From contig NZ_WARX01000017.1 in the NCBI RefSeq assembly GCF_009720385.1, positions 248,001 to 312,000 of the forward strand: DNA of 64,000 bases. The letters are read 5' to 3'. A program made the translations under genes and the position numbers. Of this stretch, positions 2,537 to 56,124 are shown piece by piece. The notes beneath the pieces are model-generated. The model was not told where the DNA came from. It searched no databases and saw only the letters and a program-made list of their open reading frames with translations. This stretch comes from Catellatospora vulcania. Its GTDB lineage: Bacteria > Actinomycetota > Actinomycetes > Mycobacteriales > Micromonosporaceae. Position 1 is the first letter of the stretch, and each line of letters starts with the position of its first letter.

Positions 2537-4138
2537 ATGCGACACGCGCACAGCCCGGGCGCGCACCGCGCCAGGCGAGCCGGTCTGGTGACCGCCGCCG
2601 CCACCGCAGCACTGGCCGTCGTGATGACGGCCCTGCTGAACCTGACCGGCGGCGTCGCCATGGCCGCCACGCTGTTCTCCGACAACTTCAACAGCGGATC
2701 GGCCACCGGCTGGTCCAAGTCCGGCGGTGACTGGTCCGTGGTCACCGACGGCAGCGGCACGTTCCAGCAGGGCAAGGTCGACAGCGAGCTGGCCCGCCAG
2801 TTCGCGGGCAGCACCTCGTGGACCAACTACACGGTCTCGGCGCGGGTGAAGCCGACCGGCTTCAGCGGCTCCGGCCGCTACGCCGCGCTCGGCGCCCGCT
2901 CCACCGGCTCGTCGACCCGCTACCAGGTGGCCCTGCTCAACTCGGGGCGGGCCGAACTGCAGGCGGTCAACGGCAGCAGCGTCACCGTGATCGGCGGCGT
3001 GAACCTGACCGTGAGCACCGGCACCTGGTACACCCTGCAGCTCACCGCCAGCGGGTCCACGCTGACCGGCTGGGTCAACGGCACGCAGGTCGGCTCGGGC
3101 ACGAACACCGCGTTCGGCTCGGGTCGGATCGTGCTGGTGACGTCGTACGCCACGGCCCGTTTCGACGACGTCGTGGTCTCCGACGCGGCGGGCCCCGCCC
3201 CGACCACCGGCGGCCCGCAGCCGTCGGCCTCGTCGTCACCGCAGCCCCCGTCGCCGTCCGTGCCCAGCAGCCCGCAGCCGCCGGTCACCGGGCTGGTCGG
3301 CTGGGCCACGGTCTCCGGCACCACCACCGGTGGCGCAGGCGGCAGCACGGTCAACGTGACCAGCGCGTCCCAGTTCCTCAGCGAGATCAACTCGTCGGGG
3401 ACGAAGACCATCACGTTCTCCGGCAGCTTCTCGCTCAGCGGCATGAACAAGGTCGCCTCGAACAAGACGATCCTGGGTGTCGGCTCCAACGCCACCCTGG
3501 TCGGCGGCGGCCTGACGCTGAGCAACGTCTCCAACGTCATCATCCGGAACATCAACTTCCGGGACTGGGACGACGACGCGATCAACGTCGAGACCAGCTC
3601 GCACCACGTGTGGATCGACCACAACAGCCTGACCAACGGCTACGACGGCGCGATCGACATCAAGCGCGGCTCCGACTACATCACGGTGTCGTGGAACCGG
3701 ATCTACGGCCACGACAAGAGCATGCTGCTCGGCCATAGTGACGACAACGGCAGCCAGGACATCGGCCACCTGCGCGTCACGTACCACCACAACTGGTTCG
3801 ACGGCTCCGGCACCCGCCACCCCCGCGTGCGCTTCGGCAACCCGGTGCACGTCTACAACAACTACTACAACGGCAACGAGTACGGCGTCGCCTCCACCTG
3901 CAACGCCGGCGTGCTGGTCGAGGGCAACTACTTCGAGAACGTCGACGAGCCGACCGCGGTCGGCTACGCCGACTCTCCGGTGGGCGCCATCGTCCAGCGC
4001 AACAACTACTTCGTCGGCTCCGGCAGCCCCGCCAGCGGCGGCGGCACCGTCAACAGCATCCCCTACTCCTACACCCTCCAATCGGCGAGCTCGATCAAAT
4101 CGATCGTGACCGCCTCCGCCGGCACCGGCCGCATCTGA
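2537..4138 (+). CDS. Secreted pectate lyase PL1 with N-terminal LamG-like module (paralogue 2)
   Basis: 533 residues. Start ATG at 2537 follows GAGGAGGA at the previous stop codon. Signal peptide about 1-43 (cleavage after AMA), LamG-like module about 44-215 (ATLFSDNFNSGSATGW), Ser/Pro/Gln linker about 218-252, then a PL1 beta-helix with HHVWIDHNSL, KSMLLGHSDD and HPRVRFGNPVHVYNNYY. Same architecture as the preceding gene, with conserved modules and a divergent linker, so the pair arose by duplication. Expected role is extracellular degradation of homogalacturonan. The 12-nt gap to the upstream gene indicates an operon; a palindromic repeat right after the stop probably ends the transcript. 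Confidence 0.92.
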   Translation: MRHAHSPGAHRARRAGLVTAAATAALAVVMTALLNLTGGVAMAATLFSDNFNSGSATGWSKSGGDWSVVTDGSGTFQQGKVDSELARQFAGSTSWTNYTVSARVKPTGFSGSGRYAALGARSTGSSTRYQVALLNSGRAELQAVNGSSVTVIGGVNLTVSTGTWYTLQLTASGSTLTGWVNGTQVGSGTNTAFGSGRIVLVTSYATARFDDVVVSDAAGPAPTTGGPQPSASSSPQPPSPSVPSSPQPPVTGLVGWATVSGTTTGGAGGSTVNVTSASQFLSEINSSGTKTITFSGSFSLSGMNKVASNKTILGVGSNATLVGGGLTLSNVSNVIIRNINFRDWDDDAINVETSSHHVWIDHNSLTNGYDGAIDIKRGSDYITVSWNRIYGHDKSMLLGHSDDNGSQDIGHLRVTYHHNWFDGSGTRHPRVRFGNPVHVYNNYYNGNEYGVASTCNAGVLVEGNYFENVDEPTAVGYADSPVGAIVQRNNYFVGSGSPASGGGTVNSIPYSYTLQSASSIKSIVTASAGTGRI

Positions 4139-4143
4139 TGAAA

Positions 4144-4189
4144 GGAAGGGCACCTTCACAACGCTCAGCGTTGTAGAAGGTGCCCTTCC
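4144..4189. repeat. Palindromic repeat family A, copy 1
   Basis: GGAAGGGCACCTTC (4144-4157) pairs perfectly with 4176-4189. A second stem lies inside (ACAACGCT / AGCGTTGT, 4158-4174), so the whole element is almost one palindrome. It starts 5 nt after the pectate lyase stop codon and could act as a terminator. Other copies: 5846, 6788, 24136, 29203. Confidence 0.85.
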
Positions 4190-4236
4190 CATCTCTGCAC
4201 CGCATTTGATCTGCCCGCACATGAACCGGAGGAGAG

Positions 4237-5829
4237 ATGACGATCCCGCACCGCCGGCGCACCGCACTCCTCGCCGGCACCATCGCCGCCGCCCTCGCCC
4301 TGGCGGTCGGCCTCACCACCGCCGCGTCCGCGGCGACCCTGTTCAGCGACGACTTCGAAGACGGCAACGCCACCGGCTGGAGCAGCTCGGGCGGCAGCTG
4401 GTCGGTCGTCACCGACGGCTCCCGCGCCTACCGCCAGAGCAGCACCAGCGCCGACGCGAAATCACTGTCCGGCACCGCCTCCTGGACCGACTACACGGTC
4501 TCGGCGCGGGTCAAGCCGATCGCGTTCGGCAACAGCACCCGCGCCACCGGCATCGCCGCGCGCGCGTCGAGCACGTCCAGCTTCTACTCGCTCGTGCTGG
4601 TCGGCGCGGGCCGGGCCGAGCTGCGCCGCACCAGCGGCGGCGGTGTGACGGTGCTGGCCCAGGCGGCCACCACGGTCAGCCCTGGCAGCTGGCACACCCT
4701 CGCCCTGCAGGTCACCGGTAGCACGCTGCGCGGCTCGGTCAACGGCACGCAGCTGGTCACCGCGACCGACGCGAGCTTCGGCACGGGCCGGATCGGGCTC
4801 GTCGGCTCGTACGCCAGCGCTGCCTTCGACGACGTCCAGGTCGTCACCGGCACCGGCCCTGATCCGTCACCGTCGACGCCTGCCTCACCGTCGGCCCCGG
4901 CCTCGCCGTCGCCGAGCACCAGCCCGCCGCCCCAGCCCCCGCCGGGCCAGGCCGACGGCTACGCCTCGGTGAACTCCCTCGGCCAGAACGGCACGTACGG
5001 CGGCGCGGGCGGGCAGACCGTCACCGTCACCAGCGCGGCGCAACTGGCCGACTACGCGGGACGGGCGGAGCCGTACATCATCATGGTCTCCGGCCGGATC
5101 TCGGTCAGCGGCATGATCACCGTGGTGGCGAACAAGAGCATCATCGGCGTCGGCGGCACCGCCGAGATCACCGGTGGTGGGTTGCAGATGGGCTCGACCA
5201 CCCGGCCCGGCAACAACGTCATCATCCGCAACATCACCTTCCGCGACGCGTCCGACGACTCGGTGAGCGTGCACAACGCCTCGCACCACGTGTGGATCGA
5301 CCACAATGAGTTCTGGCCGGGCTTCGACGGCTCGGTGGACGTGAAGCGGCAGTCGAACTTCGTCACCGTGTCGTGGAACGTCTTCCATGCCACCGACAAG
5401 TCCATGCTGCTCGGGCACTCCGACACGTTCCCCGACGACATCGGGCACCTGAAGGTGAGCTACCACCACAACCTGTTCGACGGCTCTAACCAGCGGCATC
5501 CGCGGGTGCGGTTCGGTGAGCCGGTGCACGTGTACAACAACTACTACCGCAACGTCGGGCTCTACGGCGTCGCGTCCACGGAGAACGCGGGCGTGGTCGT
5601 GGAGGGCAACTACTTCGAGAACGTGGCGTTCCCGTGCTACTCGACCAACGGGTACGCCGACAGCGCGCCCGGCCGCCTGGTCCAGCGCGCGAACGCGTTC
5701 GTCAACTCAGGGGCCTGTGAGGCGAACGGCACCGTGGCGGAGCCGGGCAGCTTCTACGGCTACACCCTCGACGCCGCCGCCACCGTCCCCGCCAAGGTCA
5801 CCGCCGGTGCCGGCGTCGGCCACCTGTAA
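4237..5829 (+). CDS. Secreted pectate lyase PL1 with N-terminal LamG-like module (paralogue 3)
   Basis: 530 residues. ATG at 4237 is preceded by GGAGGAG and opens a signal peptide (PHRRRT, hydrophobic stretch, cleavage near ASA/AT at 32-33). LamG-like module about 33-205 (ATLFSDDFEDGNATGW), a proline/serine linker about 206-243, then PL1 with HHVWIDHNEF, KSMLLGHSDTF and HPRVRFGEPVHVYNNYY. Third gene with this architecture in a row; sequence similarity suggests successive tandem duplication. It lies beyond repeat copy 1, so it may be transcribed separately. The final residues (GAGVGHL) resemble the ends of the other copies (GAGVGKI, SAGTGRI), so the end is natural. Confidence 0.92.
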   Translation: MTIPHRRRTALLAGTIAAALALAVGLTTAASAATLFSDDFEDGNATGWSSSGGSWSVVTDGSRAYRQSSTSADAKSLSGTASWTDYTVSARVKPIAFGNSTRATGIAARASSTSSFYSLVLVGAGRAELRRTSGGGVTVLAQAATTVSPGSWHTLALQVTGSTLRGSVNGTQLVTATDASFGTGRIGLVGSYASAAFDDVQVVTGTGPDPSPSTPASPSAPASPSPSTSPPPQPPPGQADGYASVNSLGQNGTYGGAGGQTVTVTSAAQLADYAGRAEPYIIMVSGRISVSGMITVVANKSIIGVGGTAEITGGGLQMGSTTRPGNNVIIRNITFRDASDDSVSVHNASHHVWIDHNEFWPGFDGSVDVKRQSNFVTVSWNVFHATDKSMLLGHSDTFPDDIGHLKVSYHHNLFDGSNQRHPRVRFGEPVHVYNNYYRNVGLYGVASTENAGVVVEGNYFENVAFPCYSTNGYADSAPGRLVQRANAFVNSGACEANGTVAEPGSFYGYTLDAAATVPAKVTAGAGVGHL

Positions 5830-5845
5830 GAGGAAGTCCCGCGAT

Positions 5846-5892
5846 GGAAGGGCACCTTCTTGGCCGCTGAACGTGGCGGAAGGTGCCCTTCC
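5846..5892. repeat. Palindromic repeat family A, copy 2
   Basis: GGAAGGGCACCTTC (5846-5859) pairs perfectly with 5879-5892; the spacer is of the second type (TTGGCCGCTGAACG...). It lies 16 nt after the stop of the third full-length pectate lyase and before a convergent gene, as a bidirectional terminator would. Confidence 0.85.
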
Positions 5893-5948
5893 CGACGCGG
5901 CTCCGCACCGACGTGCTCGGGTGTGTCGTCGGCACCTGCCGAACGCGC

Positions 5949-6694: not shown

Positions 6695-6787
6695 CAGACC
6701 TCACGCGATCCCCCTCTACGCGTCGATGTGCCACTGCGGCAGCCTAACGCCACGCCCACCCGCTCCCGAAGTCCAATGAGGAGCGGA

Positions 6788-6829
6788 AAGGGCGCTTTCC
6801 ACAACGAAAGCGTCGTGGAAAGCGCCCTT
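6788..6829. repeat. Palindromic repeat family A, copy 3 (variant)
   Basis: AAGGGCGCTTTCCAC (6788-6802) pairs perfectly with GTGGAAAGCGCCCTT (6815-6829), with ACAACG in the spacer as in copy 1. It begins 6 nt after the GH9 stop codon (minus strand), a terminator position. The arm sequence has drifted together on both sides (CGCTTTC for CACCTTC), so pairing has been kept during change. Confidence 0.8.
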
Positions 6830-6835
6830 CGTCAT

Positions 6836-9796
<2,961 letters not shown>

Positions 9797-15232: not shown

Positions 15233-15328
15233 GAGTGGCTCCGTCCATAAGGGTGGCTTGTCCGGAATACACCCTTATTAACGACCCGTGAACAACCCAC
15301 GATGCGCGCCCCCACCCGCCCATCCCGT

Positions 15329-15391
15329 CGCAACTCTTAAAGAGTCGCGCCCTCACGAGCCGCCAGATGGCGCGACTCTTTAAGAGTTGCG
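15329..15391. repeat. Palindromic repeat family B, copy 1
   Basis: A perfect 23-bp stem: CGCAACTCTTAAAGAGTCGC... (15329-15351) pairs with 15369-15391; 17-nt spacer. The arm itself contains the smaller palindrome ACTCTTAAAGAGT. An identical arm core occurs at 56062-56124. It lies between the sulfotransferase start and the ROK gene's 3' end. Confidence 0.9.
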
Positions 15392-15462
15392 CCAGGGGTG
15401 GGGCGGGGTGGGCGGGCGCGCGGCGCGCGGCGGGGGCGGGGCGGGGTGGGCGTCGGCGGGGG

Positions 15463-21867: not shown

Positions 21868-23109
21868 TCAGGTGGCGGCGGCCGCGGGTTCGGCGGCGTC
21901 CGTGCGTACCCGCGGCGGCCGGCCGGATCCGGTGGCGTCGGTGGCCGGGAGCGGGCGGGTCAGCGCGGGAGTCAGCGCGAGGGTGACCAGGACCGAGGCG
22001 GCGGCCAGTACGGTCATCGCGGTGCCCGGCCCGGTGTGCTGGGCGATGAGGCCGGCTACGGTCGCGCCGACCGCCTGCATGGTGAGCATCCCGGAGCTGT
22101 GCAGGCCGAGCGCGTGGCCGCGCATGGACTCCGGGGTGAGCGCCAGCAGCCGTTCCTGCAGCAGCAGCCCCGCGCCGAAGCCGGCCGAGGCCAGCACCAC
22201 GGCGACGACGGCCACCGGCAGCGCCGGGGCCAGCACGAAGATCAGGTATGGCACGGCCAGCAGCAGGCGGAACGGGGTGATGAACGCCGCCCGTCGCCGC
22301 GCGGGCAGGAACCGGCCCGCGGTCATGTCGCCGGCCAGCATGCCGAACGCGCCCGCGACGAACAGCACGCCCGCGGCGTCGGGGGCGTACGGGACGAACA
22401 GCGCCTCGCAGCCGACGATGAGCCCGTTGGGCACCCACAGCGACAGGTAGACCGCGCGCCGCGGGCGGGACGACCACAGGGTCGCGTTGCTGCGCCACGT
22501 CTGCCGCACGGAGGGGCGGCCGGTGGCGCGCGGCGCGCGGCGGGTCAGCCCGAGGCGCAGGCAGAGCGCGGCGGCCAGGTGCAGTCCCGCGCTGCCGAGC
22601 AGCGCCAGCCGGGGCGAGACGCCGGTGGCGACGAGCACACCGCCCAGCGCGAAGCCGGTGATCTGCATGACGCCGACGGACATGTTCATCACCGAGCGGC
22701 CCAGCAGGTAGCCGCCCTCCGGCAGGATCTCCCCGAGCAGGCCCCAGCGGACGCCGCCCGTCACCGAGTTGACCAGCCCCTGGCACAGCAGCACGGCGAG
22801 CATGGCCGCGATCGGCATGCCGGGGGCGGCCAGCGCCAGGGAACCGGCGCAGAACAGCACGGCGACGGCGGACAGCGCGAACCGCGGCGGCACCCGGTCG
22901 GCTGCCGACAGCAGCGTCATCGCGCCCACGACCTGCATGAACGAGGCGCCGAACATGGCGATCGCGGACAGCAGCGGCGAGCCGGTCCGGGTGTAGACGA
23001 GCGTGCCCAGGGCCAGTCCGCTGAGCGTGCCCGCGGCGACCTGCATCGACATCGCGGCGAACAGGGGGCGGAACTCGGGTACGCGGAACAGTTCACGGTA
23101 GGTCTGCAC
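21868..23109 (-). CDS. MFS transporter
   Basis: 413 residues if started at GTG 23109 (sequence VQTYRELFRVPEF, the usual beginning for this MFS group); a GTG at 23136 would add 9 residues. Neither has a clear ribosome-binding site, so the start is uncertain. About 12 membrane helices, with the family's cytoplasmic loop Arg motifs (SAADRVPPRFALS, MTAGRFLPARRRAAF). Probably a drug or metabolite exporter. It is divergent from an ArsR-like regulator only 57 nt away, the usual arrangement for self-regulated efflux, but that regulator carries a nonsense codon, so control may be altered. The C-terminus is Ala/Thr-rich. Confidence 0.85.
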   Translation of the reverse strand: MQTYRELFRVPEFRPLFAAMSMQVAAGTLSGLALGTLVYTRTGSPLLSAIAMFGASFMQVVGAMTLLSAADRVPPRFALSAVAVLFCAGSLALAAPGMPIAAMLAVLLCQGLVNSVTGGVRWGLLGEILPEGGYLLGRSVMNMSVGVMQITGFALGGVLVATGVSPRLALLGSAGLHLAAALCLRLGLTRRAPRATGRPSVRQTWRSNATLWSSRPRRAVYLSLWVPNGLIVGCEALFVPYAPDAAGVLFVAGAFGMLAGDMTAGRFLPARRRAAFITPFRLLLAVPYLIFVLAPALPVAVVAVVLASAGFGAGLLLQERLLALTPESMRGHALGLHSSGMLTMQAVGATVAGLIAQHTGPGTAMTVLAAASVLVTLALTPALTRPLPATDATGSGRPPRVRTDAAEPAAAAT

Positions 23110-23166
23110 GCGGGAAGTCTCGGCCGTGGAGATCACCGGAGCTACAGTTTCGCCGGGAGGCGAAAC

Positions 23167-24135
23167 ATGGGGCTCTGGCAGATCGACGCGGACGTGCTGG
23201 CGACCAGCAGGTTCACCGTGTCGGGGCTGACCGAGGCGCTGGCCTGCCTGAGCCTGCTGGAGTACGACAGCCCGCCACCGGGACAGGAGCAGTGGTTCGG
23301 CGAGCACCGAGCGGCCTACCAGCGCATGATGGCCGCCGATCCGCTGCGGCGGCCGCTGGTGCGTACGGCGCTGCGCCCGAGGTCGATCGCCGACTTCATC
23401 TGCCGCCCGCCGGCGCCGCAGGACCGGGGGTTCGCCGACGAACTCGCCCGGCTGCGGCAGACCCCGGTGGCGCAGGCGCTCGCCGACCTGCGGGCGGATG
23501 GGCCGGTCCGGCCCGAACTCGACACGTCCGACCTGGTGGAGCGCACCGCCGACATCCTGGAATGGGTGTGGACCCACACCGTCGAGCCGACCTGGGCGCA
23601 GCGCCGCCGGTTGTTCGAGGCCGACATCGTCGCGCGCACCCAGCAGTTGAGCACGGGCGGCTGGGCGGCGGCGCTCGACGGGCTGCGGCCGGGGCTGCGC
23701 TGGCTCGGCGGGGGCCGCCTACAGATCAACGTGTACGACAACCCGCCGCGCGTGCTGACCGACGCGCAGCTCAGCTTCATCCCGAGCAGCGCCCGCCGGG
23801 GCTGGGTGTGCTGGCTGCTGCCCAGCCGGTTCGCGATCGTCTACCCGTGTGCGGGGCGGCTGGCGGCACCGGACCGCGATGCCTCCCCGGTGGCGCTCGA
23901 CCGGCTGCTCGGACCGGGTCGCGCGGCGATCCTGTGCCACCTCGACGCGCCGCTGAGCACCACCCAGCTGGTCGCGGTCACGGGCGCGGTGCTGGGTTCC
24001 GTCGGCCGACACCTGTAGGTGCTGCTGGACGCGCAGCTGGTACGCCGCCGTCGCGCGGGCCGCTCGGTGCTCTACTACCGCACCGAGGCCGGCGACCAGC
24101 TCGTGCGGCTCAACCGCAGCCCGCAGGAGCGTTAA
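23167..24135 (+). pseudogene. ArsR-like (DUF5937-type) regulator interrupted by in-frame TAG
   Basis: ATG 23167 (GGGAGG 6 nt upstream) opens a 283-residue product ending at TAG 24016-24018. Past that stop the same frame continues for 38 codons to TAA 24133 and encodes exactly what the fold needs: VLLDAQLV then RRRRAGRSVLYYRT (the winged-helix wing) and EAGDQLVRL. The stop therefore falls in the DNA-binding domain, right after GSVGRHL. A single change such as CAG to TAG would explain it. As read, the protein lacks its wing and is probably inactive. Alternatives are a sequencing error or amber readthrough. Intact, it would repress the divergent MFS gene. Confidence 0.8.
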
Positions 24136-24179
24136 GAAGGGCACCGTCTACAACGCATAGCGATGTGAAGGTGCCCTTC
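24136..24179. repeat. Palindromic repeat family A, copy 4
   Basis: GAAGGGCACC (24136-24145) pairs with GGTGCCCTTC (24170-24179); the spacer contains ACAACGCATAGCG, close to copy 1. It starts at the very base after the TAA of the broken regulator and lies between two convergent genes, as a bidirectional terminator would. Confidence 0.8.
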
Positions 24180-24184
24180 CTTCG

Positions 24185-25576
24185 TCAGGGGCGGGGGAGG
24201 GTGCGGTCGCGGGCTTCGGCGTAGCGGGCGCGGACGGTGGCGTGCGCGTCGGCTTCGAAGAGTTCGAGGCCGTCGAGGGCCCAGGCCGGGGCGGCGCCGG
24301 TGGTGATCCAGGCGGCCTGGCGGGCGGCTCCGTCGGCGACGTACTCGCCGGGCGGGGGGACGGCGACGGGGCAGCCGAACACGGACGGGGCGATGCGGCG
24401 CACCGCCTCGGACTTCGCGCCGCCGCCGACCAGGAGCACCCGGTTGACGGTCGCGCCCTGGCCGCGCAGGGCGTCGAGGCCGTCGGCCAGCGCGCAGAGC
24501 ATGCCTTCGACGGCCGCGCGGGCCAGGTGCGCCGGGGTGGACGTGCCCAGGGTGAGGCCGTGCAGGGAGCCGGTCGCGTCGGGCTTGTTCGGGGTGCGCT
24601 CGCCCTCCAAATAGGGCACCAGGACCAGGCCGTCGCTGCCGGCGGGGGCGGACAGGGCCAGCCGGGACAGCTCGGCGTGGTCGACGCCCAGCATGGTCGC
24701 GGCGGCGTCGAGCACGCGGGCGGCGTTGAGCGTGCAGACCAGCGGCAGGAAGTGGCCGGTGGCGTCGGCGAAGCCCGCGACGGTGCCGGTGTCGTCGGCC
24801 GCGGGGACCGTGGCGACGCTGAACACGGTGCCGGAGGTGCCGATGGACACGATCACGTCGCCGGGCGCCGCGCCCACGCCGAGCGCGGCCGCGGCGTTGT
24901 CCCCGGCGCCGGGGCCGAGCAGCGCGCCCGCCGGGGTCCGGCCGGGGGAGCCGTCGGGGCCGAGCACGGCGGGCAGCAGCAGGTCCCGGCCGAAGGCCAA
25001 CTTGAGCAGGTCGCGGCGGTATTCGCCGGTGCCGGGCGACCAGTAGCCGGTGCCGGAGGCGTCGCTGCGGTCGGTGGCCAGCGCGGCGAGGTCACCGGTG
25101 CCGCCCAGCCGCCAGGTGAGCCAGTCGTGCGGCAGGCACACGGCGGCCGTACGGGCGGCGTTGTCGGGCTCGTGCTGGGCCAGCCAGCGCAGCTTCGTCA
25201 CGGTGAACGAGGCGACCGGCACGCTGCCGACCGCCTCGGCCCAGGGCTGCCCGCCGCCGAGTTCGGCGACCAGATCGGTGGCGGCCTGGGCGGAGCGGGT
25301 GTCGTTCCAGAGCAGGGCGTCGCGGACGACCTGGCCGTCGGCGTCGAGGCAGACCATGCCGTGCTGCTGGCCGCCGACCGAGACGGCGGCGACGTCGTCC
25401 AGCCCGCCCGCCGCGGCGACCGCCGTCTGGAGGGCCTCCCACCAGGCGTCGGGCGGGCAGGACGTGCCGTCGGGGTGGCTCGCCCGCCCCTGGCGGACCA
25501 GCGCACCGGTGTCGGCGTCGCGGACCACCACCTTGCACGATTGGGTGGAGGAGTCGATGCCGGCGACGAGTGCCAT
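24185..25576 (-). CDS. xylB: Xylulokinase
   Basis: 463 residues, FGGY carbohydrate kinase. N-terminal phosphate-binding loop [14 protein letters not shown] (5-18), substrate region [11 protein letters not shown] and LWNDTRSA typical of xylulokinase rather than glycerol kinase, catalytic Asp in [13 protein letters not shown], and the C-terminal ATP site [16 protein letters not shown]. It phosphorylates D-xylulose to xylulose 5-phosphate for the pentose phosphate pathway. The ATG at 25576 lies 5 nt after the GH31 stop, so it is the second gene of a GH31-xylB operon. Together they release and use xylose from alpha-xylosides. No xylose isomerase gene is in the window. Confidence 0.93.
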
Positions 25577-25581
25577 AAGGT

Positions 25582-27942
25582 TCAGTCTCCTGGTGCCTGC
25601 CAGGTCGCCGTGAGCAGGCCGTCCACCGGGCCCAGCGTGGCCCGCACGCCGTTGACCAGCACGGTGGCCGGAGGGGTGCCGCCGGCGACGGTGGGGAACG
25701 CGATCGCCGTGACCCGGGCCGGCCCGGCGATGGTCACCGAGAGCGTATCCCCGTCCCGCCGTGCCGCGACAGTGGTTGCGTCACCGTCGTCGCGGATCTC
25801 GCACGATCCGTCGCCGCCGCCGAAGCTCAGCAGTGTGAGCTGCGCCCATGGACCGTCAGCCAGGTGCTGGGCGGGCGCGGTGACGGGCAGCAGGGCGTCG
25901 CGGCGTACCCACAGCGGCAGTTGCGTCAGCGGGGGCGCGACACGCAGCGTGACGCCGCCGCCGACCGCGTCGCCGCTCCACCAGTCGACCCACTCGCCCG
26001 GCGGCAGGTAGACGTCACGCTGCTGGCTTGCACTGATCATGGGCGCGACCAGCAGGTCCGTCCCGAGCCGGTACACGTGCTCGGCCCGCCACGAGGCCGC
26101 GTCGGCCGGGGAGTCCACGCCGAGCGCCCGCATCATCGGCTCGCCGGTCTCCGCCGAGCGCAGGGCTGCCGAGTACAGGTACGGCAGCAGCCGGTAACGC
26201 AGCCGCAGCGCCTCGATCACGTCGGCCTCGACGGCCGGGAAGCGCCACGGCTCACGGCTGGTCGTGCCGTGGAAGCGCACCAGCGGCGACAGCGCGCCGA
26301 ACTGCGCCCAGCGCAGGTACAGGTCGTCGCTGGGGGTGCCGCAGAAGCCGCCGCTGTCGTGGGACCAGTACGGCACCCCGGACAGCCCGTGCGCGAGCCC
26401 GCCGTTCATCGACGACGCCAGCGCCTCGTACGAGCACATCGTGTCGCCGCCCCACTGGGCCGCATGGCGCTGCCCGCCCAGGTACGACGAGCGCCCCCAC
26501 ACCATGGCGTGCCCGTGCACCTCGCGGGTGACCTCGGCGACCGCGTCGTTGAACAGCAGCGCGTACACGTTGTGCAGTTCGGTGCCGGTCATGCCGTTGA
26601 ACGCGACCGCGTCGGCGGGCACGCCCTCGGCGAAGTCGGTCTTGAACACGTCGACACCCTGCCGGGCCAGCGGCCGCAGCAGGTCCTGGAACCAGGCCGT
26701 GGCCTCGGGATTGGTGAAGTCGACGATGCCGCCCGCCGGGAACGAGCCGTGCCAGGAGTCGGCGACGTACACCGAGCCGTCGGCCCGGCGCAGCAGGAAG
26801 CCCCGCTCGGCGGCCTCGGCGAAGCGGTCGGTGCGGTGCGACAGGTACGAGTTCATCCACACGCACACCCGGAAGCCCTGCTCGTGCAGGGTCGCCAGCA
26901 TGGCGTCCGGGTCGGGGAACGCCTCGGCGTCCCACAGCAGGTGCGACCAGGTGCCCTCGGCCTGCCAGTAGGTGTCCAGGTGCAGCACGTCGCAGGGGAT
27001 GCCGTGCGCGCGGATGGTCGCCGCACGGGCCAGCACCTGCTCCTGGGTGTCGCGGCAGAAGCCCGACGAGATCCAGGAGCCGAACGCCCACTTCGGCGGG
27101 CAGGCCGGGCGGCCGGTGAGCGCGTTGTAGCGGGCCAGCACGTCGGCCGGGGTTGGCCCGGCGAGCACGTAGTACTCGATCAGGTCGTCGGGGACGATCA
27201 CCTGGGTGACGCTGCCGGTGGACGCGCCGAAGTCGAACTCCACCGGCAGGCCCGAGTCGACGACGATGCCGTAGCCCTTGCTGGACTGGTAGAACGGCAC
27301 GTTCTTGTACGCCCGGTCGGACTCGCTGCCGAAGGCGTCGAAGTTCCACATCACCGGCCGCTGGCCGCGCAGGTTCAGCGCGGTGAAGCGCTCCCCGGTG
27401 CCGGACAGCACCTCGTCGGCGGGCATGGTGAAGCTCTCGTGGTAGGCCACGATCTGGCCGTCGACCCGCGAGCAGCCCAGCGGCAGCGTGCGCATACGCC
27501 CGGAGATGTCGGTCAGACCCGGGTCGGCGCCCAGCAGCAGGCGGCCGTCGGCGTCGTGGAAGGACAGCCGCCACGGGCTCAGTGTCACCTCGGCGGTAAG
27601 CGGGCCGGCCGTGACGGACACGGTGTTCTCTCCGGTCACCACGGTCGCGACCGCGCCCGGGTCGGGTTGGGTGAGCGGGAGCAGCCGGGCGCTGCGGCTG
27701 CGCGCGCCGGCCTCCTCGGACAGGCGTACCCGCAGCATGCCGTCACCGGCCGCGCCGATGTGCAGTTGCAGCACGGAGCCGGTGTCGGTGTGCGCGTGCA
27801 GCGTCGCGCCGGTGGAGTCCTTGCTGGTCAGTTCGGCCCACACGACGGTCTCCGGGCCGAGCTCGCCGTAGGCGCGGCGGGGCAGTTCCGGTGGGTCGGC
27901 GGAGAAGTATTCGTGGGCCACCAGTGGCGGACGGAACGGCAT
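25582..27942 (-). CDS. GH31 alpha-xylosidase (YicI-like)
   Basis: 786 residues, ATG 27942 with GGGAG 7 nt upstream. N-terminal beta-sandwich about 1-270, TIM barrel about 280-600, then proximal and distal beta domains. The nucleophile motif is [11 protein letters not shown] (Asp436); the acid/base is in QWGGDT (Asp500). KTDF followed by E/GE is the pattern of alpha-xylosidases rather than alpha-glucosidases of GH31. No signal peptide, so it trims imported xyloglucan oligosaccharides such as isoprimeverose in the cytoplasm. It is divergent from a GH42 gene; a ROK-type motif sits between them. Xylulokinase follows 5 nt after its stop. Confidence 0.93.
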
Positions 27943-27983
27943 GATCGGCTCCCAGTGCGGCGTCTACTGCAGGTACAACATTT

Positions 27984-28009
27984 TTAGTTTTCCGTGTAGC
28001 CAAACAAAC
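27984..28009 (-). promoter_or_regulatory. Candidate ROK operator, site 2
   Basis: Read on the minus strand: GTTTGTTTGG-N10-AACTAA, the same half-sites and spacing as 16816-16841. It lies 42 nt before the GH31 start and 44 nt before the GH42 start, so it could control both. Confidence 0.65.
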
Positions 28010-28053
28010 GTCAACGGTTGACGCCCCCTCCGCCTCCCTCTAATTTGGCCGAG

Positions 28054-30036
28054 GTGCCAACAAAGCCGTTCTTCCTCGGTGCCGACTGGAATCCCGAGCA
28101 GTGGCCGGAGCAGGTCCGGGCCGAGGACCTCGCCCTCATGCGCGAGGCCCGCGTCACCGCGGCGACCGTCGGCGTCTTCAGCTGGTCGCGCCTGGAGCCG
28201 AGCCCCGGGGTGTACGAGTTCGGCTGGCTCGACCGGGTCCTCGACGGCCTGCACGACAACGGGATCGGCGCGGTGCTGGCCACCCCGACCGCCTCCCCGC
28301 CGCCCTGGTTCACGCTGGCCCACCCGGACGCCCTCGCCATGCGCCGCGACGGCGTACGCCTGGTCCACGGCTCCCGCGACACGTACTGCGTCAACGCCCC
28401 CGCATACCGCGCCGCGAGCCTGCGTATCGTGTCCGCGCTGGCCGAGCGCTACGCCCGGCACCCCGCCGTGCGGCTGTGGCACGTGCACAACGAGTACGGC
28501 ACCTGGTGCTTCTGCGATCACTGCGGCCGCGCCTTCCGCAGCTGGCTGCGCGAGCGCCACGGCACCCTCGACGCCCTCAACGACGCCTGGACCGCCGACT
28601 TCTGGAGCCAGCGCCACACCGACTGGGCACAGGTGCTCCCGCCCCGCGCCACGCAGTACCTCGGCAACCCCACCCAGGAACTGGACTACCGCCGCTTCCT
28701 GTCCGACAGCATGCTGTCGGCCTACACCGAGCAGCGCGACGCGATCAAGGCGGTCGCGCCGGACGGGCAGGTAACCACGAACTTCGTGCTGGGCGGTTGG
28801 GTGCCGGTCGACCACGCCCGCTGGTCCCGCGAAGTCGACCTGGTCGCCATCGACCACTATCCGTCCACCCTGGACGGCACACCCGCCGAGAGCGCCTTCG
28901 CCGCCGACACCGCCCGCGGCTGGTCGGCCGCCGCCGGGCACGGCGGCCCCTGGCTGCTGATGGAGCACGCCCCCGCCCACGTCACCGAACACGGCGTACA
29001 GCGCCGCAAACCGCCCGGCATGCTGGCCCGCATCGCCCTCGGCCACATCGCCCGCGGCTCACAGGGCGCGATGTACTTCCAGTGGCGCGCCAGCGCCGGC
29101 GGCGCTGAACAGTGGCACAGCGCGATAGTTCCCCACACCGGTCCCACCGCCCGCACCTACCACGAGCTCCGCGCCCTCGGCGAAACCCTCGCCGCGAGCG
29201 AAGGAAGGGCGCCTTCTTGCCGCTCCGCGTATAAGAAGGCGCCCTTCCCAACCGGCGAAGCCGGATTGCCTGCGGCTGGTGCGGCCGGCGCGGGTGGCGG
29301 CGAGGTGGCGGTGTGGTTCGACGAGGTGTGCGGGTGGGCGGTCGGCGCGTCGCACCTACCCGCACCCGTTGACTACCAGGGGATCGTCGAGGGCTGGCAC
29401 CGGGCACTGTGGCGGCGCGGGTACCCGGTCGACGTCGTGCCGCCCACGGCGACGCTCGCGGGGTACCGCGTGCTGGTCGTGCCGGCGGCGTACCTGCTCA
29501 CCGACGAATCCGCGCGCAGGCTGGACGAGTACACGCGCGAGGGCGGGCACCTGGTGGTGACCTACCTGTCCGGGATCGTGGACGAGCACCTGCGGGTGCG
29601 GGTCGGCGGGTATCCGGGTGCGCTGCGGGACATGCTCGGGATCCGGGTCGAGGAGTTCGATCCGCTGCCGCCTGGCGCGGTGGTCACCCTGGACACCGGC
29701 GACCTGGTGACCGGTTGGACCGAGCATCTGACCGCGCCGGGCGCGGCGGTGCTCGCCCGCTATCCGGACGGCCGTCCGGCCGTGACCCGGCGCGAGCACG
29801 GCGCGGGTCGTGCGTACTACGTGTCCTGTGACCTGGACGAGGCGGCGACGGCCCGACTGCTCGACGGCATCTGCGCCGCCGCCGGGGCGGCCCCGATCCT
29901 GCCCGGCCTGCCCGACGGCGTGGAAGCGGTGCGCACCCAGGACGGGGTCTGGCTCTTCAACCACACGGACGAACCGCACGAGATCGCGGGGCGACTCATC
30001 GCCAGGGGCGACGTCACACGGCTTCCGCTCGCATAG
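28054..30036 (+). CDS. GH42 beta-galactosidase with repeat-derived insertion
   Basis: 660 residues from GTG 28054; an in-frame TTG at 28018 is rejected because it would add a proline-rich head and overlap the operator zone. GH42 barrel about 5-380: LGADWNPEQWP at the start, HVHNEYG with acid/base Glu147, a Cys cluster (CFCDHC, 152-157) that in family members binds zinc, and LLMEHAP with nucleophile Glu304. Trimerisation domain and C-terminal beta domain follow from about 415. Residues about 383-414 do not look like GH42: they come from a family A palindromic repeat (29203-29248) plus an Ala/Gly-rich tail, in frame. Expected role is removing galactose from xyloglucan or galactan oligosaccharides. 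Confidence 0.92.
   Translation: MPTKPFFLGADWNPEQWPEQVRAEDLALMREARVTAATVGVFSWSRLEPSPGVYEFGWLDRVLDGLHDNGIGAVLATPTASPPPWFTLAHPDALAMRRDGVRLVHGSRDTYCVNAPAYRAASLRIVSALAERYARHPAVRLWHVHNEYGTWCFCDHCGRAFRSWLRERHGTLDALNDAWTADFWSQRHTDWAQVLPPRATQYLGNPTQELDYRRFLSDSMLSAYTEQRDAIKAVAPDGQVTTNFVLGGWVPVDHARWSREVDLVAIDHYPSTLDGTPAESAFAADTARGWSAAAGHGGPWLLMEHAPAHVTEHGVQRRKPPGMLARIALGHIARGSQGAMYFQWRASAGGAEQWHSAIVPHTGPTARTYHELRALGETLAASEGRAPSCRSAYKKAPFPTGEAGLPAAGAAGAGGGEVAVWFDEVCGWAVGASHLPAPVDYQGIVEGWHRALWRRGYPVDVVPPTATLAGYRVLVVPAAYLLTDESARRLDEYTREGGHLVVTYLSGIVDEHLRVRVGGYPGALRDMLGIRVEEFDPLPPGAVVTLDTGDLVTGWTEHLTAPGAAVLARYPDGRPAVTRREHGAGRAYYVSCDLDEAATARLLDGICAAAGAAPILPGLPDGVEAVRTQDGVWLFNHTDEPHEIAGRLIARGDVTRLPLA
29203..29248. 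repeat. Palindromic repeat family A, copy 5, inside GH42 coding sequence
   Basis: GGAAGGGCGCCTTCTT (29203-29218) pairs perfectly over 16 bp with 29233-29248. It encodes part of residues 384-399 (GRAPSCRSAYKKAPFP) between the barrel and the trimerisation domain, without breaking the frame. All other copies lie outside genes. Confidence 0.9.
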
Positions 30037-30078
30037 CAACCATTTCCCGGAAATCGCTGCCGTGAACCTTTTGTGAAG

Positions 30079-30130
30079 TAGATCTTGTGCAGTTGGTGCT
30101 GCCAGGACGACACGAACTGCACAAGATCTA
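30079..30130. terminator. Perfect 16-bp inverted repeat after GH42
   Basis: TAGATCTTGTGCAGTT (30079-30094) pairs without mismatch with 30115-30130 across 20 nt. It begins 43 nt after the GH42 stop. The rest of 30037-30295 shows no gene. Only one copy was seen, so repeat or terminator cannot be decided. Confidence 0.6.
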
Positions 30131-30295
30131 ACCTACTCGTGGCCGTGCGGGCCGAGCCGGACCGGCCGCCGCCTCCGGTGGTGCTGTCGCATCGTCCGTA
30201 CCCCCGTACCCGTCGGTTGTGCCGGGTGGCACGGTAGCCGAGCTGCGCCAGGCGGAGACTCGGCCGAAACGCTCGATCTTGGTGGACGGCCCGGT

Positions 30296-30658
30296 TCACG
30301 CGGGGCGGTGGTCGATGAAGCGGTCGCCGCCGAATGCCGTGAGCGCCGCCGCGACCTGATCCGGGGTGTCCTTCACCTTCGCCAGGTCGAGCAGCACCCG
30401 GCAGGGGCGGCCGTCGACGGGGTTGGGCGCGTGCACCAGCCCTCGGTCGAGCATCGCGCCCGCGACCGGCACGAGCAGTAGGCGGCACACGATGCGGCTG
30501 TCGGTGACGGCCGGCCCCTGGTACAGGATCACGGACTCCACCTGTGACCAGAGCACCTCGGTCGCCCAGCCGTCGCGGCTGAGCGCCAGACCGTGCGCGT
30601 CGACGCGGAAGCCATGCGGCCGGCTGCGCCAACGCAGGTACTTCCTGAGCCGCCCCAT
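30296..30658 (-). CDS. Small PH-like domain protein, hypothetical
   Basis: 120 residues from ATG 30658; a GTG at 30688 would add ten residues but has a weaker upstream context. A basic N-terminus (GRLRKYLRWRSRPHG) is followed by a pattern of short beta-strands (FRVDAHGLALSRDGWATEVL, WSQVESVILYQG) like bacterial PH-like (YdeI/YokE-type) domains, then a helix (DTPDQVAAALTAF). No membrane segment is evident. The conserved WSQVESV strand is the best indication that it is a real protein. Function is unknown. It lies alone between the GH42 3' region and the DUF1254-type gene on the same strand. Confidence 0.6.
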   Translation of the reverse strand: MGRLRKYLRWRSRPHGFRVDAHGLALSRDGWATEVLWSQVESVILYQGPAVTDSRIVCRLLLVPVAGAMLDRGLVHAPNPVDGRPCRVLLDLAKVKDTPDQVAAALTAFGGDRFIDHRPA

Positions 30659-30714
30659 GAATGTTCCCGCCCATCGCCCGTCGGGCACATGCTAGGGGAA
30701 CAGAGCCGCTGCAG

Positions 30715-32124
30715 TCAGCCCGTGCGCTCGATCTCGCCGGGCCGCCACGTCTGGTCGTACCAGGCCTGGAGCGGGCCGTAGAGGCGGAGCAGCGTGAACC
30801 AGTGCTTGCCGGGCACGGTCTGGATCCAGTTCGACTCGTGGCCGGGTGGTGGCGTCGGGCCGAAGCGCACGTCGACGGTGCCGTCGGCGTTGGCCGCGAC
30901 GGTGCCCGAAAGGCTGCTCACGCTGGGGTACAGGGTGTCGGTGACGAGCAGCGAGCGGGTCTGGCAGTCGTACACGCTGACCGACCAGAACGTCTTCGCG
31001 GGAACGTGCCGCGGCAGGTGCAGCCGGTACGAGCGCCCGCCGTCGAGCCACTGCCCGTCGGCGTCCTCGGCGGTGTAGGCGTACGCGGAACCGGTGCCCA
31101 CCGGCGACTCGGCCATCGCGGGTGTGACCACGGTGGCGAGGTAGTGGAACGCCGCGCGGGCGTCCAGCAGGCGGGCGCCCTCGCTCAGGAACTCGTGGCT
31201 GCCCCCGACGAAGATGCGCTTCCACGAGGAGTCGGGGTAGTAGTAGGCCGCCGGGTCGCGCGGGCGGAAGACCAGGGCACGGGCGATACCCGCGCCCAGC
31301 GGGGCGGCCTGGGCGAGGATCGCGCGCAGCCGGTGGTCGGGGCCGAACACGTCGCCCTTGACGATGCCGATGCTCGCCAGGATGCCGCGCCGTTCGGGGT
31401 CGAGCGACTCCAGCGGCTCCTCCTGGACCACCACGTCGACCTCGTCGTAGAAGGTCGCGTCGTTGGCGTGCACGGTGTTGTGCGGCCGGTCGGCGAGGTT
31501 CACGAACTCGTTCGGCGGCGGGTACGCGGCCTGCGCCAGCGGGTACACCCGGACCTGCTGGACCGCCTCGACGCCGTCGAGCGCCCGGAACACCGCCCAG
31601 TTGGTGAAGGTGGGGCTGCGGAACGTGTAGTAGCCGTCGGGCACCTCGTCCTCGTGGTCCGGGGGCAGGAACAGGTACTTGCCGCCTTTGCCCTGGTCGG
31701 GCCCGGCCCATCCCAGGTCGGTGACATACCGGAACCAGAAGTCGTCGACCACGCACAGCGAGTTCGGCGGCACCTCGACCACTGTCGGCCCGTCGGTGTC
31801 CAGGTCGAGGAAGGTGTGGCCGTACGTGGTGTCGGTGTTGGGGGTCAGGTAGAGGCTGGTGGAGTTCAACCGCGGGTCGGTGATGCCGATCTGGCGGGCC
31901 GAGGTGACGCCCACGCTGCGCAGGCCCGTCCGCATCACCGCGAGCGACGCGCCCGGCATGGCCACCAGGAAGGCCTCGACGGCGCGGACCAGGTCGAGCG
32001 CGTCGAAGAGCCGGTCGGCGCCGTCCGCGGCGGGCAGGCCGTCGTGGAAGGCGAACTGCCCGAGCGGGGTGTCCAGGCTCTCGGGCATACCGATGGCGGC
32101 CAGGATCTCCTTCGGAATGGACAT
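30715..32124 (-). CDS. DUF1254/DUF1214 domain protein
   Basis: 469 residues from ATG 32124, which has GAGAGG upstream; the frame is open to 32259 but the extra N-terminus is unlike a protein. DUF1254 section about 60-190 (LYLTPNTDTTYGHTFLDLDTDGPTVVEVPP) and DUF1214 section about 350-460 (AKTFWSVSVYDCQTRSLLV, GKHWFTLLRLYGPLQAWYDQTW). Many such proteins are secreted; this one has no signal peptide. Enzymatic activity is not established for the family. No operon partner is obvious; the small PH-like gene is 57 nt downstream. Confidence 0.85.
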   Translation of the reverse strand: MSIPKEILAAIGMPESLDTPLGQFAFHDGLPAADGADRLFDALDLVRAVEAFLVAMPGASLAVMRTGLRSVGVTSARQIGITDPRLNSTSLYLTPNTDTTYGHTFLDLDTDGPTVVEVPPNSLCVVDDFWFRYVTDLGWAGPDQGKGGKYLFLPPDHEDEVPDGYYTFRSPTFTNWAVFRALDGVEAVQQVRVYPLAQAAYPPPNEFVNLADRPHNTVHANDATFYDEVDVVVQEEPLESLDPERRGILASIGIVKGDVFGPDHRLRAILAQAAPLGAGIARALVFRPRDPAAYYYPDSSWKRIFVGGSHEFLSEGARLLDARAAFHYLATVVTPAMAESPVGTGSAYAYTAEDADGQWLDGGRSYRLHLPRHVPAKTFWSVSVYDCQTRSLLVTDTLYPSVSSLSGTVAANADGTVDVRFGPTPPPGHESNWIQTVPGKHWFTLLRLYGPLQAWYDQTWRPGEIERTG

Positions 32125-56061: not shown

Positions 56062-56124
56062 CGCAACTCTTAAAGAGTCGCGGCATCCAGGTGTCTGGAT
56101 GGCCGCGACTCTTTAAGAGTTGCG
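56062..56124. repeat. Palindromic repeat family B, copy 2
   Basis: CGCAACTCTTAAAGAGTCGC... (56062-56084) pairs perfectly over 23 bp with 56102-56124. A second stem ATCCAG / CTGGAT (56085-56100) extends it. Arms agree with 15329-15391 except at the inner end, where the change is compensated on both sides (GCGGC/GCCGC versus GCGCC/GGCGC). Confidence 0.9.

Follow-up and report, generated by a model that had tools for sequence, protein, structure and literature searches.

A directional hairpin repeat near gene ends in Catellatospora, with a copy read in frame within a GH42 beta-galactosidase gene

Results

The stretch analysed here, 64,000 nucleotides of the Catellatospora vulcania genome and referred to as the window, contains a GH42 beta-galactosidase gene with a perfect hairpin inside its reading frame, and four further copies of the same repeat:

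28054..30036, + strand: GH42 beta-galactosidase gene (Pfam PF02449 and PF08532, gene call, ORF list)
29198..29252, + strand: full directional element in the GH42 gene, by profile (nhmmer 54.5 bits, E 1.2e-14)
29203..29248, + strand: hairpin core of the repeat copy inside the GH42 gene, 16-bp perfect arms
29249..29304, + strand: Ala/Gly-rich linker 3' of the element, length very variable among orthologues
4140..4193, + strand: repeat copy, begins 1 nt 3' of called gene 2588-4138
5844..5897, + strand: repeat copy, begins 14 nt 3' of called gene 4237-5829
6786..6835, no strand assigned: diverged repeat copy with arm AAGGGCGCTTTCC, adjoins the 3' end of gene 6836-9709 (- strand)
24130..24185, - strand: repeat copy, adjoins the stop of gene 24185-25576 (- strand)

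In the GH42 gene, the start codon of which is uncertain (GTG at 28054, with the ORF also open from 28018), the hairpin arms occupy 29203-29218 and 29233-29248, are 16 nt long and are 100% complementary. Counting from the GTG, the core touches codons 384-399. An earlier note on this DNA had described an in-frame palindrome between the barrel and the trimerisation domain, followed by an Ala/Gly-rich stretch, and this description is borne out in each part: the reading frame is uninterrupted across the site, where it reads ...SEGRAPSCRSAYKKAPFPTGEAG..., the hairpin sits between the Pfam domains GH42 (residues 23-392) and GH42M (429-621), and the Ala/Gly-rich stretch follows the element. The hairpin is flanked by GCGAAGG on its 5' side and CCCAAC on its 3' side and, as RNA, the site has a calculated energy of −35.6 kcal/mol (z −4.66). 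In 9ta3, the best-matching solved GH42, 8 residues separate the two matched stretches, versus 32 in the C. vulcania protein. An AlphaFold2 model from 16 sequences has a mean pLDDT of 86, with values below 50 at residues 1-3, 384-396 and 399-414 and block means of 33-45 in the linker, suggesting that the copy is translated as a disordered linker. Perfect stems inside genes are generally not rare, i.e., 98 of the 489 stems of at least 11 bp in the 2.06-Mb sample described below lie within called genes. Thus, what sets the GH42 gene apart is the repeat family and not the stem.

Two other noncoding stretches adjoin this gene. An inverted repeat of 20 nt (95% complementary) at 30079-30130, 3' of the stop codon, is likely the true 3' end of the GH42 gene. 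On the other side, ∼40 noncoding bases at 27981-28024 (TTTAGTTTTCCGTGTAGCCAAACAAACGTCAAC...) are near-identical across all 11 Catellatospora genomes compared here (G000, that of C. vulcania, and its congeners G001-G010); they separate the divergent genes 25582-27942 and 28054-30036 and are probably a shared operator/promoter.

The repeat is a dispersed family, as the earlier note had proposed. The strict pattern AAGGGCRCCTTCN{8,36}GAAGGYGCCCTT, which is identical on both strands, finds 146 copies in the 8.83-Mb genome (36 contigs) and 0 in a reversed-pattern control; because this pattern and the second one used below are both rigid, all copy counts given here are lower bounds. In congeners G001 to G010, the pattern finds 204, 132, 181, 93, 99, 129, 193, 42, 1 and 49 copies, respectively, and outside the genus it occurs in three of 139 Micromonosporaceae genomes with one copy apiece. 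A pattern with GGGGCCC/GGGCCCC arms finds 96 copies in G009, 76 in G010 and one in G006, and none in the remaining eight genomes of the genus, G000 included. Outside the genus, copies with these arms are present in 19 of the 139 family genomes at 1 to 147 per genome, and in total such elements occur in eight of 44 genera. Thus, the broader family extends past Catellatospora. The arms form dialects by genome: the GGGCACC type prevails in most congeners, G009 has 1 copy of this type versus 96 with GGGGCCC/GGGCCCC arms, and G010, the sister of G009, has mixed arms (49 versus 76). The arm differs between G009 and G010 at two orthologous sites. One of these sites has a GGGACCC arm in G009, which fits neither of the dialects. 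At the other site, comparison by eye shows mismatches at 3 of 18 positions when the G010 loop is set against the reverse-complemented G009 loop.

Features outside the arms are also shared. When 56 copies are oriented by their closest gene end, the flank consensus is asymmetric, with [CG][GA]AAGG before the hairpin and CYTAACG after it; loop motifs are common to copies, and identical 42-mers are found at different places in the genome. One forward frame of the typed consensus is fully open (RRKGTFLTLCVEEGALLNA) and the other two contain stop codons. Among the partial profile matches listed, 11 of 12 have the right arm reversed (GCA for TGC), making them direct repeats, and the GH42 copy of G007 is of this kind. 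The exact 11-mer arms lie within elements in 128 of 134 occurrences and are solitary in six. No Rfam family matched the window at gathering score.

Positions relative to genes were determined in a sample of 2.064 Mb (C1 1-1.52 Mb, C3 260001-660000, C10 1-80000 and the window) using a simple home-made gene caller. No density is claimed from C3 and C10 because copies were already known in these stretches when they were chosen. A profile built from 49 full copies gave 75 matches at E <0.01 in this sample. These 75 elements lie a median of 12 nt from the closest gene end, and for 64% of them the distance is within 25 nt, versus 12.6% of 2000 random intergenic positions; for 339 other intergenic perfect stems, the median is 21 nt and 54.6% lie within 25 nt. 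Where exactly one gene end is at most 60 nt away, 38 elements have the same orientation as the gene and 9 the opposite one; 16 of the 75 have two gene ends within this distance and 12 have none. Overall, 34 of the 75 lie between converging gene ends and four between two gene starts. These are places at which transcripts should end, and the closeness to gene ends and the orientation bias fit a hairpin of transcript 3' ends. The four other copies in the window were all placed at gene 3' ends by the earlier note, and all four are there, including the diverged copy at 6786-6835, a low-scoring profile match on the + strand (30.7 bits). The site of the 24130-24185 copy is occupied in eight of the 11 Catellatospora genomes. 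At one convergent site, three congeners have the repeat while the other eight genomes have an unrelated GATCGCCGCGGC palindrome, a pattern that would be expected of hairpins substituting for each other in a single role. Elsewhere in the window, two divergent called genes at 21868-24018 are present in G000 and G006 only, with no match in the stretches compared from the other nine congeners.

The earlier note had suggested counting intragenic copies and their frames. In the 2.06-Mb sample, eight of 75 elements share 12 nt or more with a called coding sequence, at its 3' end in seven cases and internally in one, the GH42 gene. In five of the seven 3'-end overlaps, the element contains the stop codon; one of the seven, at C1:560988 (gene G), is a weak gene call, and the element there is on the other strand. 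We traced four of these genes (A-D) through the ten congeners. Gene C, which we take to be CHAD-like, has the element at its end with the stop codon inside it in ten of 11 genomes (RKGTFLSLHV* etc.), and a different frame of the element is used in G009 and G010. Gene A has the element in four of 11 genomes, in two frames. In gene B, the element is at the gene end in seven of 11 (G000, G001-G005 and G007); in G001 the stop directly precedes the element and in G007 the frame runs into it. Gene D has the element as a tail in five of 11, and the matches in G002, G005 and G006 resemble a different gene. Genes A-D thus show, across congeners, that the element repeatedly supplies C-terminal tails and does so in each of the three frames; with three frames used across genes and species, the repeat does not encode one conserved peptide.

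The GH42 insertion is found at one site in eight species and is thus not specific to this strain; in six of them the copy is read in a common frame, EGRAPSYRSAYKKVPF, and in G001 and G007 an element occupies that place but is read in a different frame (ERKGTFLT...). The element is absent from the GH42 genes of G008-G010 and of L038, L040 and L041, the three outgroups in which the linker was read. Neither of the two findings that the earlier note had named as telling against it was thus made: these homologues do not share the segment, and the element is present elsewhere in the genome. In a GH42 tree, a split with support 94 sets the eight carriers apart from the three noncarrier congeners and the outgroups, and another with support 92 sets the six-species group apart from all others. 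One gain followed by a frame change and two gains both fit this history. In the GH42 genes of Catellatospora sp. KI3 and C. tritici (L035 and L036), the linkers are Ala/Pro-rich and contain short repeats but no element, indicating that this linker takes up insertions in general.

Although coding, four of 21 pairs of the GH42 stem have changed on both sides among the eight copies. Counts of at least 4/21 were reached by two of 500 shuffles, which do not keep the relatedness of the eight related sequences on which this covariation rests, and slid structures give 0 to 2. Template switching would also yield such paired changes without function. G004 has a stem of 20 bp, and its amino acids are altered there. 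Stem energies are −31.3 to −41.0 kcal/mol in the six-species group, and the stems of G001 (−25.4 kcal/mol) and G007 (−24.1 kcal/mol) are mispaired and weaker; intergenic copies have a median of −33.6 and a range of −43.1 to −22.4 kcal/mol (n=54). Changes in the GH42 element versus its flanks are 4/42 versus 38/174 for G000/G006, 2/42 versus 60/173 for G005/G002 and 8/42 versus 8/168 for G001/G007. Thus, the element is conserved in the six-species group but not in G001/G007. In comparisons over several sites, differences between G005 and G002 (two sites) amount to 1/36 in loops, 1/48 in arms and 92/345 in flanks, and those between G000 and G006 (three sites) to 5/54, 10/72 and 97/520, respectively, with seven of the ten arm differences arising from a one-base shift at one site. 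The idea that loops are hypervariable between G001 and G007 was rejected because, at five sites, loops (21/90) differ about as much as flanks (169/862); arms differ at 5/120.

With respect to termination, a stable hairpin lies directly behind stop codons in transcript orientation, as in an intrinsic terminator. A consensus scan for T-tract terminators called 0 sites in 24000-31000, which contains two copies, and these two copies therefore lack the classical form; the consensus tail CCCTTCYTAACG (56 copies) is not a T-run. The description of the hairpin as terminator-like in the earlier note thus fits by position and fold, with no T-tract called at the two scanned copies and termination itself a putative role.

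With respect to mobility, 294 boundary/length tests on 49 copies gave three nominal p ≤0.01 and no target-site duplication beyond chance; such duplications fade with age, as described in an excerpt of PMC10969869. No clean empty site was found: in G004 and G006, where gene A lacks the element, the surrounding intergenic DNA is too diverged for a junction. The Y1 transposase domain (Y1_Tnp, PF01797) has 0 matches in G000, G001 and G008-G010 and one to three in the other six of the 11 genomes, and these matches do not track copy number.

Discussion

Here, we describe a directional hairpin repeat of ∼54 nt in Micromonosporaceae that, as we consider probable, normally sits at transcript 3' ends and has one linker-borne copy in the GH42 gene. 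This explanation accounts for the position, orientation, C-terminal tails and retention of the repeat. Its normal place would be the 3' end of a transcript, immediately behind or containing the stop codon, where its most likely role is that of a terminator or RNA-end hairpin, in many cases serving two convergent genes. We suggest that the repeat spreads by copying and is then kept at its site. One copy may have entered the permissive linker between the barrel and trimerisation domains of GH42, either in the ancestor of the eight species or twice independently. There, ribosomes should prevent transcript termination at the hairpin. The stem appears to stay paired in six of the eight species, even against the amino-acid sequence, and this may reflect either selection on the hairpin or hairpin-templated homogenisation of the arms. 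A 3'-end hairpin family of this kind would double as a source of protein sequence, supplying C-terminal tails, often with their own stops, as well as the GH42 linker. Moreover, GH42 orthologues with and without the element, and with two frames, make selection on hairpin versus peptide testable.

The likeness to the palindromic elements of Rickettsia, which the earlier note had raised, has to be weighed against this. An excerpt of PMC10969869 describes the Rickettsia RPEs as palindromic repeats that are translated as in-frame insertions in protein genes, nearly half of the copies in R. conorii being internal to ORFs. The Catellatospora repeat could likewise be a selfish mobile palindrome that keeps a translatable frame, with the gene-end copies being what selection leaves: it is palindromic, it is translated within the GH42 ORFs of eight species and in the C-terminal tails, and one forward frame of its consensus is open throughout. 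However, the repeat is shorter (∼54 nt versus ∼150 for RPEs), lies mostly behind stop codons and writes C-terminal tails and stops, and its orientation and closeness to stop codons are unlike random insertion. Moreover, the consensus has stops in two of three forward frames while all three are used, and only one copy of 75 in the sampled 2.06 Mb is internal. Because the GH42 copy is the sole internal one in this sample and the rule is adjacency to stop codons, the repeat does not appear to spread into genes as RPEs do; of the spread proposed by the earlier note, the in-frame GH42 copy stands and the general tendency does not, and we consider the selfish-palindrome explanation improbable. By description rather than sequence, the repeat also resembles a dispersed terminator-like hairpin repeat of another phylum (excerpt of PMC10969869), except that no T-tract was called at the two scanned Catellatospora copies. 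Literature searches naming the organisms or Actinobacteria, or on palindromic elements in general, made by titles in mainly open-access literature, found no description of such a repeat for Micromonosporaceae, consistent with the impression in the earlier note.

Other explanations fare no better against the preferred reading of a 3'-end family with a linker copy. The GH42 copy might be an active regulatory device in which premature termination or RNA processing yields a barrel-only enzyme beside the full-length trimeric one. The hairpin is located at a domain border, the six-species stems are as stable as intergenic copies, and in G004 a 20-bp stem coexists with changed amino acids; nevertheless, a domain border is also a permissive place that would be expected without function, no T-tract was called, and the G001 and G007 stems are mispaired and weaker, yet within the intergenic range. 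We regard such a device as decidedly doubtful. REPs and BIMEs with their RAYTs are short extragenic palindromes present in hundreds of copies. The Catellatospora repeat is similarly short, palindromic, biased to extragenic positions and present in hundreds of copies, but Y1_Tnp is missing from its own genome, from G008-G010 and from G001, the most copy-rich congener with 204 copies. We therefore rejected mobility of the RAYT/REP type; RAYT-driven motion is unlikely, and that the repeat is a REP element moved by a RAYT has very little in its favour. Equally hard to uphold is the idea that the copies are terminators that evolved independently and owe their likeness to a sequence-specific factor selecting for the arm. 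The genome-wise dialects and the arm differences at the two orthologous G009/G010 sites would fit, but flanks (GAAGG, CYTAACG) and loop motifs are shared outside the arms, identical 42-mers at different places point to copying, and the GGGACCC arm in G009 is neither dialect. In Neisseria and Haemophilus, uptake-sequence terminators consist of inverted arms behind genes and have lineage dialects, as does the Catellatospora repeat. Unlike uptake sequences, its exact arms are almost never solitary (6/134), and a DNA uptake sequence was rejected on this basis.

A broader idea, which we put forward only tentatively and think rather unlikely to hold in full, is that a 3'-end hairpin system that forms dialects is shared among Micromonosporaceae, with the arms changing genome-wide in concert, and that genes have repeatedly allowed the element to encode their C-termini and, on one or two occasions, a linker between domains. 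Compared with G008, G009 has switched its arms nearly fully and G010 by about half; a concerted change of this kind would imply a trans-acting reader or copy-to-copy correction. The arm dialects offer a natural experiment on the concerted change of a genome-wide repeat.

The repeat is not the only hairpin family in this DNA. A second one, CGCAACTCTTWAAGAGTYGCG, occurs in the window at 15309-15411 and 56062-56124, and, in the sample of 2.06 Mb, the 7-mers that recur most among the other perfect stems are TCTTTAA (18) and TCTTAAA (17).
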